This document shows, in pieces, positions 8,442 through 15,051 of a stretch of DNA of 15,051 nt. The notes beneath the pieces were generated by a model. It saw nothing but the letters and a program-made list of their open reading frames with translations. It made no database searches and was not told the origin of the DNA. The position numbers and the translations under genes were made by a program. The stretch lies in the NCBI GenBank assembly GCA_030590605.1, contig JAUUYB010000013.1:1-15051 (forward strand). Reading direction: 5' to 3'. Source of the DNA: Candidatus Woesearchaeota archaeon. GTDB taxonomy: Archaea > Nanobdellota > Nanobdellia > Woesearchaeales > JAUUYB01. Position 1 is the first letter of the stretch, and every line of letters begins with the position of its first letter.

Positions 8442-8792
8442 TTACTCTGCTTTCTTTTCTTCGTCCTCGGAATCCTCAGTGGTTTCCTCAGCGTCTTCTG
8501 CAGGTTCTTCAGCTGCTTCTTCAGTAGCTTCTTCAGCTGGCTCTTCAGCTGCTTCTTCAGTAGCTTCTTCAGCTGGCTCTGAAGCGGAATCATCTGCATC
8601 GTCTGCATAAGAGACATTGGCAGCTTTTGGGCCCCTATCTCCATCAACAACATCAAATGAGACATCGACACCTTCGTCAAGCCTTACACCTTCATTGAGT
8701 GCAGTCTCGTGCACGAAATAATCTTTGCCGTCATCAGCCTGAATAAAGCCGAATCCTTTTCCGCTGTTAAAAAATTTTACTTTTCCTTTCAT
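8442..8792 (-). CDS. Cold-shock-domain protein with acidic repeat tail
   Basis: The 116-residue product begins with a cold-shock domain (about 1-63): [18 protein letters not shown] includes the RNP1-type motif KGFGFI, and DYFVHETAL the RNP2-type motif. Such proteins bind single-stranded RNA or DNA and act as RNA chaperones. Residues about 64-116 are almost only Glu, Ala, Asp, Thr and Pro. They contain a 12-residue unit [12 protein letters not shown] twice in tandem, mirrored in DNA as a 36-bp direct repeat (8506-8577). Bacterial CspA proteins stop at the domain end, so the tail is an addition. The start is preceded by GTGAGG and overlaps the stop of the zinc-ribbon gene (ATGA). The domain is of bacterial type, and transfer from bacteria is plausible. 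Confidence 0.93.
8506..8577 (-). repeat. 36-bp tandem repeat, two copies, in the csp tail
   Basis: Copies at 8506-8541 and 8542-8577 appear identical in the bases read and keep the frame (12 codons each). They encode the [12 protein letters not shown] units. High DNA identity suggests a recent duplication, and copy number may vary between strains. Confidence 0.85.
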
Positions 8793-12729: not shown

Positions 12730-12788
12730 GCTATTTCTTATACAATTCTTGTATTCATTTCGTAACCTATATTTCTTGCAGCCCAAAC

Positions 12789-12797
12789 ATTTAAATA
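12789..12797 (+). promoter_or_regulatory. TATA-like box of the nrdR-nrdD operon
   Basis: ATTTAAATA predicts transcription start near 12816-12820, inside the first NrdR box, and a leader of about 54 nt before ATG 12872. The leader has no clear Shine-Dalgarno site. Confidence 0.55.
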
Positions 12798-12815
12798 TCA
12801 GTGAACCCAGAAAAA

Positions 12816-12831
12816 CCACAAGATGTTGTGT
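12816..12831 (+). promoter_or_regulatory. NrdR box 1
   Basis: CCACAAGATGTTGTGT fits the bacterial NrdR-box consensus acaCwAtATaTwGtgt at all strongly conserved positions and is nearly palindromic. It overlaps the predicted transcription start, so a bound repressor could block initiation. Confidence 0.78.
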
Positions 12832-12846
12832 AGTTGAAAAAAACAC

Positions 12847-12862
12847 ACACAATATATGGTAC
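12847..12862 (+). promoter_or_regulatory. NrdR box 2
   Basis: ACACAATATATGGTAC matches the NrdR-box consensus at 13 of 16 positions against the ideal palindrome; deviations are in the right half. It starts exactly 31 bp after box 1 (15-bp spacer), i.e. three helical turns, the arrangement typical of tandem NrdR boxes. Confidence 0.75.
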
Positions 12863-12871
12863 TACTCAACA

Positions 12872-13345
12872 ATGAAATGCCCATACTGCGGAAACACCAA
12901 CAACAAGGTCGTAGACAAGCGGGAGACCGAGAACAACATCGCTACCAGGCGCAGAAGGGAATGTTCAGGATGCAGCAAAAGATTCACAACCTACGAACGG
13001 ATCGAGGGCATCAACCTAATAGTAATCAAGAAGAATGGCACAAGGGTGGCATTCGATAAGACAAGAGTCGAGAAAGGGATCATGCGATCATGTGAGAAGA
13101 GACCCCTTTCAACTGAGACCAAGCTCAACATCGCGGATGAAGTCGAATCTGAGCTCATAAATGGAGAAACCACCGAGATCAAGAGCACGACCATCGGAAG
13201 ACTCGTGATGAAACGGCTCCGCAAACTCGACAAGGTCGCATACATCAGATTCGCATCAGTATATCGGGACTTCGAAGACGTGAACGAGTTCCATGATGAG
13301 ATATCAAAATTAATACGAAAAAAAAAAGGTGATAACAATGGCTAA
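12872..13345 (+). CDS. nrdR: Transcriptional repressor NrdR
   Basis: NrdR senses ATP/dATP with an ATP-cone domain and represses ribonucleotide reductase genes. The 157 residues begin with the zinc ribbon (Cys3, Cys6, Cys31 and Cys34; MKCPYCGNT and RRRRECSGCSKRFTTYER). The usual DSR after the first Cys pair reads Asp15-Lys16-Arg17. The ATP-cone spans about 49-139 (LIVIKKNGTRVAFDKTRVEKG to AYIRFASVYRDFEDVNEF). Length and motif order are those of bacterial NrdR. The ATG at 12872 is chosen because the zinc ribbon begins at residue 3; the frame extends upstream through the operator region without meaning. It overlaps nrdD by 8 nt. NrdR is nearly universal in bacteria and rare in archaea, so transfer together with its operators is likely. 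Confidence 0.95.
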   Translation: MKCPYCGNTNNKVVDKRETENNIATRRRRECSGCSKRFTTYERIEGINLIVIKKNGTRVAFDKTRVEKGIMRSCEKRPLSTETKLNIADEVESELINGETTEIKSTTIGRLVMKRLRKLDKVAYIRFASVYRDFEDVNEFHDEISKLIRKKKGDNNG

Positions 13346-15051
13346 CCCACAGATAACATCGATACGGAAACGAGACGGAAGAGTAGTCGAATTCGCACCA
13401 GAAAAGATAACTGAAGCTATTTTCAGAGCAGCCAAGTCAAGCGGAGGAAGCGACAGGAAACAAGCAGAAGATCTCACCAAAAAAATCGAGATCATCCTAG
13501 ACTATAAATTTGGGGCAGGAGAGATACCGACTGTCGAAGAAGTCCAAGATCTGGTCGAAAAAGTACTCATCAAATATGGCCATTCAACAACCGCAAAAAA
13601 TTATATCCTCTACAGGCATCAGCGGCAAAATGTAAGAGATACCAAATCCGTATTGGTCGATGTAGAAGAAACAATCTCAGAATACCTTGACCAGTCGGAC
13701 TGGAGAGTCAAAGAAAACTCAAATGAAGGATTTTCATTCTCCGGGCTGTTATTGCATACGTCAGGGAAAGTCATCGCCAACTATATGCTGACAAAGATAT
13801 ATCAACCAGCAGTAGCAGACGCACACAAGAAAGCATATATGCATATCCATGACCTATCCCATGGAGTGATCGGATACTGCTCAGGCTGGTCCCTAAAGAA
13901 CCTACTCATGAAAGGTTTCGGTGGAGTCCCGAACAAAGTCGATACAAAACCTGCCAAGCATATGGATGTGGTGGTCTCACAGATGGTGAACTTCATAGGC
14001 TGTCTCCAGATGGAATTTGCAGGAGCACAGGCTTTCTCCTCAGTAGACACTCTTCTTGCCCCATTCGTGCGGGCAGACAATATGACCTACAAAGAAGTGA
14101 AGCAAAGCATACAAAGACTCGTCTTCTCACTCAATATCCCATCAAGGTGGGGAAGCCAGTACCCATTCTCCAACCTTACCTTCGACTGGACACCCCCAAA
14201 AGACATGAAGGATGAACCAGCGATCGTAGGCGGAAAGATCCTTGAAACCACCTATGGAGACTATCAGGTAGAGATGGACATGGTCAACAAAGCATTCCTT
14301 GAGGTCATGCGGGAAGGAGATGCAAACGGAAGGATATTCACCTTCCCTATCCCAACATATAACCTGACAAAAGATTTCAATTGGGACTCAGATAATGCGA
14401 AGCTCCTATTCGATGTCACAGCGAAATTCGGGACCCCTTATTTCCAGAACTACATCGGTTCAGACCTCGATCCATCATCAGTCAGAGCGATGTGCTGCAG
14501 GCTTAACATAAATCTCCTCGAGCTACAAAACCGGCCAGGAGGGATGTGGGGACCAGGCGACTCGACAGGATCGATAGGGGTCGTCACAATGAATGTCAAC
14601 CGTCTGGCTTATGAAGCCAAGGACGAGGATGAATTCCATGAGAAACTCGGGCATTATATGGATTTTGCGCGGGACTCGCTTGAGATCAAGAGGAAAGTCA
14701 TCACCAAGAACCTTGAAAATGGTCTGATGCCATTCACCAAGGTCTACCTAGGACATTTCAAGAACCACTTCTCAACCATAGGACTCTGCGGAATGAACGA
14801 AGCCTGCATGAACCTGATCGATAAAGATATCACAACAGAAGAAGGCACGGAACTTACCATAAGAACGCTTACCTTCATGCGAGACAGGATCAAAGAATAC
14901 CAAAAAGAGACAGGCAACCTGTACAATCTTGAAGCGAGCCCGGCTGAATCGACAGCATACAGGTTCGCAAAGATGGACAAGAAATTCCATCCAGAAATCA
15001 AGACCGCAGGAACAGACAAACCATACCTTACAAACTCTACGCATCTGCCAG
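13338..15051 (+). CDS. nrdD: Anaerobic ribonucleoside-triphosphate reductase, N-terminal part
   Basis: Class III ribonucleotide reductase reduces NTPs to dNTPs with a glycyl radical. The frame is open from ATG 13338 to the window end (571 codons), so the C-terminus, with the expected glycyl-radical and zinc sites, is not visible. The start is set by GGTGAT (13328-13333) 4 nt upstream. Residues about 4-95 form the regulatory ATP-cone (ITSIRKRDGRVVEFAPEKI). The catalytic domain shows HIHDLSHGVIGYCSGWSL (His169 to Cys181), FSLNIPSRWGSQYPFSNLTF and RAMCCRLN (Cys386-Cys387). Cys181 and one of the latter pair are candidates for the active-site cysteines. The activase gene nrdG would be expected downstream. 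Co-transcription with nrdR implies dATP-dependent feedback both on activity and on expression. Confidence 0.96.
   Translation, partial: MANPQITSIRKRDGRVVEFAPEKITEAIFRAAKSSGGSDRKQAEDLTKKIEIILDYKFGAGEIPTVEEVQDLVEKVLIKYGHSTTAKNYILYRHQRQNVRDTKSVLVDVEETISEYLDQSDWRVKENSNEGFSFSGLLLHTSGKVIANYMLTKIYQPAVADAHKKAYMHIHDLSHGVIGYCSGWSLKNLLMKGFGGVPNKVDTKPAKHMDVVVSQMVNFIGCLQMEFAGAQAFSSVDTLLAPFVRADNMTYKEVKQSIQRLVFSLNIPSRWGSQYPFSNLTFDWTPPKDMKDEPAIVGGKILETTYGDYQVEMDMVNKAFLEVMREGDANGRIFTFPIPTYNLTKDFNWDSDNAKLLFDVTAKFGTPYFQNYIGSDLDPSSVRAMCCRLNINLLELQNRPGGMWGPGDSTGSIGVVTMNVNRLAYEAKDEDEFHEKLGHYMDFARDSLEIKRKVITKNLENGLMPFTKVYLGHFKNHFSTIGLCGMNEACMNLIDKDITTEEGTELTIRTLTFMRDRIKEYQKETGNLYNLEASPAESTAYRFAKMDKKFHPEIKTAGTDKPYLTNSTHLP

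Follow-up and report, generated by a model that had tools for sequence, protein, structure and literature searches.

Tandem NrdR boxes between the archaeal TATA box and the nrdR–nrdD operon of a woesearchaeote, and their recurrence in other archaea

Two NrdR boxes lie between the TATA box and the nrdR–nrdD operon in a 15 051-nucleotide stretch of DNA from a Candidatus Woesearchaeota archaeon (hereafter the window; contig 64 in a 1.13-Mb assembly that is 84 % complete). We read them as paired operator sites for NrdR on a promoter of the archaeal TATA/TBP/TFB type, at which dATP-loaded NrdR would cover the transcription start and repress nrdR and nrdD, and assign this reading a probability of about 0.87. 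Sequence comparison indicates that the arrangement is common in the phylum, is present in other archaea and is not special to the window's genome. The window appears typical of an archaeal regulon that is widespread and of which no description was found in the literature searched.

The tandem boxes and the genes they precede

The TATA box TTTAAATA (12790–12797, plus strand), presumably the TBP site of the nrdR–nrdD promoter, matches TTTAWATA at 8/8 positions and starts 26 bp before box 1. Box 1 (CCACAAGATGTTGTGT, 12816–12831, plus strand) and box 2 (ACACAATATATGGTAC, 12847–12862, plus strand) scored 20.2 and 16.7 bits respectively under a weight matrix from which the window was excluded. Box 2 falls in the predicted 5′ untranslated region, and the nrdR ATG follows at 12872, nine bases downstream. 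The original prediction had placed two palindromes here, with starts 31 bp apart, in a bacterial-type tandem spacing and between a TATA-like box and the nrdR start codon. The coordinates and the 31-bp distance between starts were verified, leaving a spacer of 15 bp, and the published core C.[AT].A[AT].[AT].G was present in both boxes, as in a bacterial-type operator with a 14–17 bp spacer. The accessible part of PMC12051234, a survey of bacterial genomes, reports NrdR binding with spacers of 14–17 and also 24–27 bp, and the distance between the box 1 and box 2 cores belongs to its 'short' class.

Both boxes differ from the consensus ACACAATATATTGTGT by three mismatches each. A scan of the rest of the genome for this pattern had been proposed with the original prediction. 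At up to three mismatches it returned five places in 1.13 Mb (three for a reversed control pattern), among which only the window's two boxes were paired; no partner box was found 29–33 bp away at the other three, in parts of contigs 6, 25 and 152. The site on contig 25 is intragenic and without a partner, and one poor-looking core pair occurs elsewhere on contig 152. Scored together at spacing 31 with the matrix built without the window, the pair reached 36.8 bits. Among 1214 control windows (each 250 bp, from the same loci and mostly coding DNA) the top score was 10.6 bits, and the maximum among 1210 shuffled upstream regions was 22.0 bits, with 1 % above 8.1.

The operon was predicted to encode NrdR and NrdD, and profile matches agree with this for both genes. 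The nrdR gene (12872–13345, plus strand; 157 aa) scored 179.2 bits against TIGR00244 over residues 1–147, above the curated cut-off of 124.65 across the full length of the family, and also matched PF22811 and PF03477. Its product has a Zn ribbon with C3, C6, C31 and C34 in two CxxC motifs together with K12, D15, R17, R26–29 (RRRR) and R37, followed by an ATP cone (PF03477, 77.3 bits, residues 50–136). The alignment to solved NrdR chains is gapless, and position 12 is likewise lysine in one of them. In the structure of Streptomyces coelicolor NrdR, the accessible text of PMC9110341 names D15, R17, R26–29 and R37 as DNA contacts, and all of these are kept in the window's protein. The nrdD gene for the anaerobic (class III) ribonucleotide reductase (RNR) spans 13338–15050 on the plus strand, overlaps nrdR by eight bases, encodes an N-terminal ATP cone and is cut by the contig end; it matched PF13597 at 462 bits, PF03477 at 83 bits and NF006126 at 860 bits.

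A second nrdD is found in the same genome on contig 160 (genome G000, L256:1003–3090), followed by an nrdG-like gene recognized by eye from about 3785 on. No NrdR boxes were found at this second nrdD, and we therefore rejected NrdR control of every RNR gene in the genome; of its two class III reductases, apparently only one is under NrdR, judging from the box scan. Elsewhere in the window, a cold-shock-domain protein with a long, acidic and repeated C-terminal tail is encoded at 8442–8792 on the minus strand.

Conservation of the box pair and promoter geometry in archaea

To compare nrdR loci, 371 genomes were sampled from the phylum, in which 285 gave TIGR00244 matches (E ≤0.001) and 263 exceeded the cut-off. 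From the matches listed for these 285 genomes, 110 nrdR places were taken by score, except for two near contig ends, so the set consists mostly of best-scoring matches, and the relatives are mostly incomplete assemblies. A total of 130 loci minus eight duplicates and one locus with 25 bases of upstream sequence (L121) left 121 distinct archaeal nrdR upstream regions, three of them from other phyla. Loci L336–L338, listed among those from other phyla, come from genomes already in the 121.

Using the published core in a both-strand form, two cores 30–33 bp apart were found in 41/121 upstream regions, where 1.7 were expected from shuffles. The distances peaked at 32 bp (24 loci) and 31 bp (13 loci), with seven loci at 29 and at most four at any other value between 11 and 60. 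As the strict core alone was paired in only 41/121, a weight matrix was built from 39 pairs (78 boxes), and a pair was called at a sum of at least 15 bits with spacings of 20–50 allowed. Positions outside the fixed core were also conserved among the 78 boxes, with A at position 3 in 90 % and T at position 14 in 88 %.

With this matrix, a box pair preceded 64/77 RNR-linked nrdR genes and 8/44 others (Fisher p 1.6e-12), while none of the 1214 control windows had a pair at 15 bits. The linked genes comprised 25 paired out of 26 nrdR–nrdD loci, at least two of which are fusions (L136, L194), and 39 out of 51 loci with nrdJ/A (other RNR). The unlinked genes were paired in 8/39 cases with no RNR gene in the stretch and in 0/5 cases with an RNR gene upstream. 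Some sums depend largely on a single strong box next to a poor one, as in 4/64 linked pairs with a box below 5 bits; when at least 5 bits were demanded of each box, the counts were 60/77 and 7/44 (p 2e-11). Thirteen of the 77 linked loci had no pair at 15 bits. Since the matrix was trained on part of the set, loci held out of it were also counted separately: the pair was found in 9/10 nrdD, 19/31 other RNR, 5/36 no-RNR and 0/5 RNR-upstream loci, and in a leave-one-out test 39/39 pairs were retained. As a yardstick, bacterial nrdR upstream regions, counted regardless of RNR neighbour, had the pair in 11/61.

The spacing was 31–33 bp in 61/64 linked pairs. Loss of the motifs or free drift of their spacing in relatives that keep nrdR–nrdD, which would have spoken against the original prediction, was thus not what was found (25/26 paired, 61/64 at 31–33 bp); boxes and spacing are kept where nrdR adjoins an RNR gene and are mostly absent elsewhere.

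The position of the pair relative to the promoter was also recurrent. A TATA-like word (7/8 match) started 16–35 bp before box 1 in 47/61 operons, compared with 14, 10, 14 and 15 operons in four successive 20-bp bands further upstream; 14/61 operons lacked a TATA-like box at the expected place. Archaeal transcription starts about 25 bp downstream of the TATA box, and therefore the predicted start lies at or next to box 1 and box 2 lies in the leader. For the window, the start is expected at about 12818–12823 from the position of its TATA box. The claim that box 1 sits at the start is consistent with the TATA distance in those 47/61 operons, the start itself being predicted from the same distance.

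RNR genes away from nrdR were compared between 60 regions from genomes with any NrdR match and 33 regions from NrdR-negative genomes. Twelve of the 60 contain part of an NrdR coding region and were left out, giving 48 regions, among them second RNR genes from one and the same genome. The pair was present in 11/48 of these and in 1/33 of the regions from NrdR-negative genomes (p 0.02), and in 10 of the 11 both boxes reached at least 5 bits. A single family (f34) accounts for six of the 11, and one of the 11 (G023) has nrdR after the RNR gene on its contig, so this contrast is supporting and not decisive. One genome, G119, is an exception: a strong 39-bit pair occurs near an RNR gene on its contig 66 (L233, L396), and no NrdR was detected in the genome.

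NrdR also exceeded the cut-off in 51/96 and 44/97 genomes of two further DPANN phyla, those of the Aenigmatarchaeota archaeon and Fermentimicrarchaeum loci respectively. In the first, a pair of at least 15 bits preceded 16/19 RNR-linked nrdR genes, 13 of them at a spacing of 31–33 bp and the others at 23, 46 and 47 bp; in the second, it preceded 7/13, all at 31–33 bp. Some of the pairs in these two phyla rest on one strong box. In haloarchaea, six plasmid loci (of seven listed) had the pair in 6/6, with boxes 29–30 bp apart and 31 bp before the nrdR start, as scored with the DPANN matrix and without a control matched in base composition; the six loci are mutually related and count as one or two cases. 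Their plasmid location reflects the collection searched, which consisted of plasmids.

NrdR is stated to be rare in archaea in the accessible portions of PMC9110341 and PMC12176259, against 263/371, 51/96 and 44/97 genomes above the cut-off in the three DPANN phyla. Published treatment of NrdR boxes concerns bacteria in what was available of PMC9110341, PMC12051234 and PMC12176259. No mention of NrdR boxes in archaea was found in the literature searched, most subscription papers being beyond its reach, and within that range the expectation that their use in archaea is little described agrees with a search that returned no description.

The circuit had also been proposed to be transplanted, operators included, onto the archaeal basal machinery. 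The boxes, their spacing and their placement relative to the TATA box on archaeal promoters support this proposal, and the transplantation itself was not dated by the NrdR tree. In a tree of 102 NrdR proteins, 52/99 inner branches were open, and neither a single DPANN clade (p-AU 0.68) nor a single clade of all archaea (p-AU 0.48) was rejected. Dating of the transfer by this tree was dropped, as its resolution was too poor.

NrdR–NrdD fusions

In three DPANN phyla, some NrdR matches sit in long open frames, and these fusions are the most surprising offshoot of the survey. Pfam matches indicated two designs: in one, NrdR precedes a full NrdD that brings a second ATP cone of its own; in the other, the NrdR Zn ribbon and a single ATP cone precede NrdD. 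When a database was queried with the Zn ribbon from a fusion protein, 144 proteins of similar length were returned. Among the 120 matches listed (P0001–P0120), 62 were classified by alignment as two-cone and 42 as one-cone, with 16 unclassified. Where organisms were shown among the matches listed, they were Woesearchaeota, Aenigmarchaeota/Aenigmatarchaeota, Nanoarchaeia or 'archaeon'. One source labels some of the fusions 'anaerobic ribonucleoside-triphosphate reductase/transcriptional regulator NrdR'. Three of the database proteins (P0034, P0062, P0064) instead join the NrdR Zn ribbon to the class I/II RNR large-subunit domains PF02867 and PF00317.

For 26 aligned one-cone proteins (of the 42), the RRRR motif and R17 were invariant and D15 occurred in at least 90 %; G706 of the C-terminal loop, which we take to be the radical site, was also invariant. 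A structure model of a fusion predicted an N-terminal Zn ribbon, an ATP cone and a catalytic domain, with a mean pLDDT of 81. In the shortest fusions one ATP cone is shared by the DNA-binding and catalytic domains, and therefore a single sensor would serve both.

Fourteen fusion genes were compared for upstream boxes (L136/L393, L194/L394, L200, L204, L219, L220/L384 and L385–L392), of which 11 were identified by Pfam or NCBIfam and three (G070, G180, G297) by an NRDD match in the same open frame; a further fusion gene, L266, with 23 bases of upstream sequence, was left out of the 14. A box pair of at least 15 bits was found upstream of ten (G034, G202, G148, G409, G564, G544, G452, G444, G070 and G180), with one box below 5 bits in G148 and G564, and none was found upstream of the other four (G120, G430, G388 and G297). 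No separate NrdR above the cut-off was found among the matches listed for the 14 fusion genomes, many of which are incomplete assemblies. NrdR–NrdD fusions were likewise without a description in the literature searched, including the available parts of PMC9531940, PMC11226230, PMC9110341 and PMC5794259. The chances seem evenly balanced that in some DPANN archaea the RNR is its own dATP-gated repressor, with one sensor that shuts the enzyme off and also targets it to its own operator.

Related architectures were observed outside this set. In an Elusimicrobiota bacterium (L094), NrdR heads a 1202-aa open frame with an NrdD-like motif and a box pair upstream, from which the fusion may also occur in bacteria. 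At L395, NrdR is followed in one frame of 517 aa by a RecJ-like nuclease region. Split PF13597 matches were seen in nrdD frames of about 1000 aa or more (G110, G301, G164, G345, G274), and the database proteins P0002, P0042 and P0116 have the extra domains PF14890 and PF14528, which we take to be intein or homing-endonuclease domains. These split or extended proteins are likely to carry inteins.

Proposed mechanism and comparison with known systems

In the proposed mechanism, one archaeal (TATA/TBP/TFB) promoter would drive nrdR and nrdD together. With plentiful dATP, NrdR carrying ATP and dATP would bind both boxes as a tetramer, with one Zn-ribbon pair per box and the boxes three helical turns apart. 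Bound NrdR would bend the DNA and cover both the transcription start, at box 1, and the adjoining leader as far as box 2, leaving RNA polymerase unable to assemble or leave. At low dATP the DNA would be free, and both repressor and enzyme would be made. Three of these elements, the dATP/ATP switch, tetramer formation and DNA bending, are taken over from bacterial NrdR and are expected by analogy. According to PMC9110341, NrdR carrying dATP and ATP forms a tetramer whose two DNA-binding sites suit boxes about three helix turns apart, with a sharp kink in the DNA at each box. The start site, repression by covering it and NrdR as the binder in archaea are what we infer. Comparison across loci shows the remaining elements, namely the two boxes and the distance between them, their usual position with respect to the TATA-like box, the association with RNR genes and the conservation of DNA-contact residues, and in these comparative claims the interpretation is supported.

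The boxes may be real and repression may nevertheless proceed with the start uncovered, by blocked TBP/TFB binding or by a downstream roadblock. The distance from the best TATA-like match to box 1 varies from −44 to −11 (43 loci), box 1 almost contacts the TATA box at the shortest of these distances, and box 2 is placed beyond box 1, within the predicted leader, all of which would suit such modes. The peak at −35 to −16 (47/61), however, agrees with transcription beginning at box 1 or close to it. TATA-like words are also scarce within the boxes and in the spacer, and NrdR would therefore not usually sit directly on the TBP site; we consider this alternative rather unlikely. It seems very improbable that the palindromes are bound by another archaeal regulator and that NrdR has a different role. 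A palindrome by itself does not name its binder, no archaeal binding experiment was found in the literature, and at RNR genes distant from nrdR the pair is modestly associated with the presence of NrdR (11/48 against 1/33), but the pair is concentrated at nrdR genes linked to an RNR gene (64/77 against 8/44), the bacterial NrdR core and spacing are matched, the DNA-contact residues are kept and fusion genes are also paired (10/14).

Chance palindromes in AT-rich DNA, or a misbinned bacterial contig, have a negligible probability in our judgement. Single boxes do occur occasionally (the five places at up to three mismatches in 1.13 Mb), and one of the 1210 shuffled upstream regions reached 22 bits, whereas 15 bits were reached by 0/1214 control windows and the arrangement is repeated in 25/26 nrdR–nrdD loci. 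Against misbinning, the best model for the window's RqcH is archaeal, with a score under that model's cut-off. Chance and contamination were rejected on the control windows, the recurrence at nrdR–nrdD loci and the archaeal-type RqcH.

The comparative signs suggest that a complete bacterial control circuit works with a different basal transcription machinery. The placement rule, with box 1 at the predicted start, is directly testable, and these largely uncultured archaea gain a nucleotide-sensing circuit that is predictable from sequence. The fusions raise the question of whether a metabolic enzyme represses its own gene via the sensor that controls its activity.

The closest known system is the bacterial NrdR regulon (S. 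coelicolor nrdRJ and nrdAB; Escherichia coli nrdHIEF, nrdDG and nrdAB), which has the same repressor family and RNR targets. According to the accessible parts of PMC9110341, PMC12051234 and PMC12176259, its tandem boxes mostly have a spacer of 15–16 bp, with self-regulation where the operon includes nrdR. The archaeal loci differ from it in that a TATA-type promoter replaces the sigma-factor hexamers, with the centre of box 1 usually 20–40 bp after that of the TATA box. The haloarchaeal nrdR–nrdBA and nrdR–nrdAB loci are a second point of comparison, as an archaeal nrdR is beside RNR genes there too. Haloarchaeal class I RNR genes with an adjoining nrdR are known and the RNR is regarded as a bacterial transfer, the boxes being unmentioned in the accessible part of PMC3019208. 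These loci differ from those described here in their class I enzyme, in a spacer of 13–14 bp and in boxes richer in GC.
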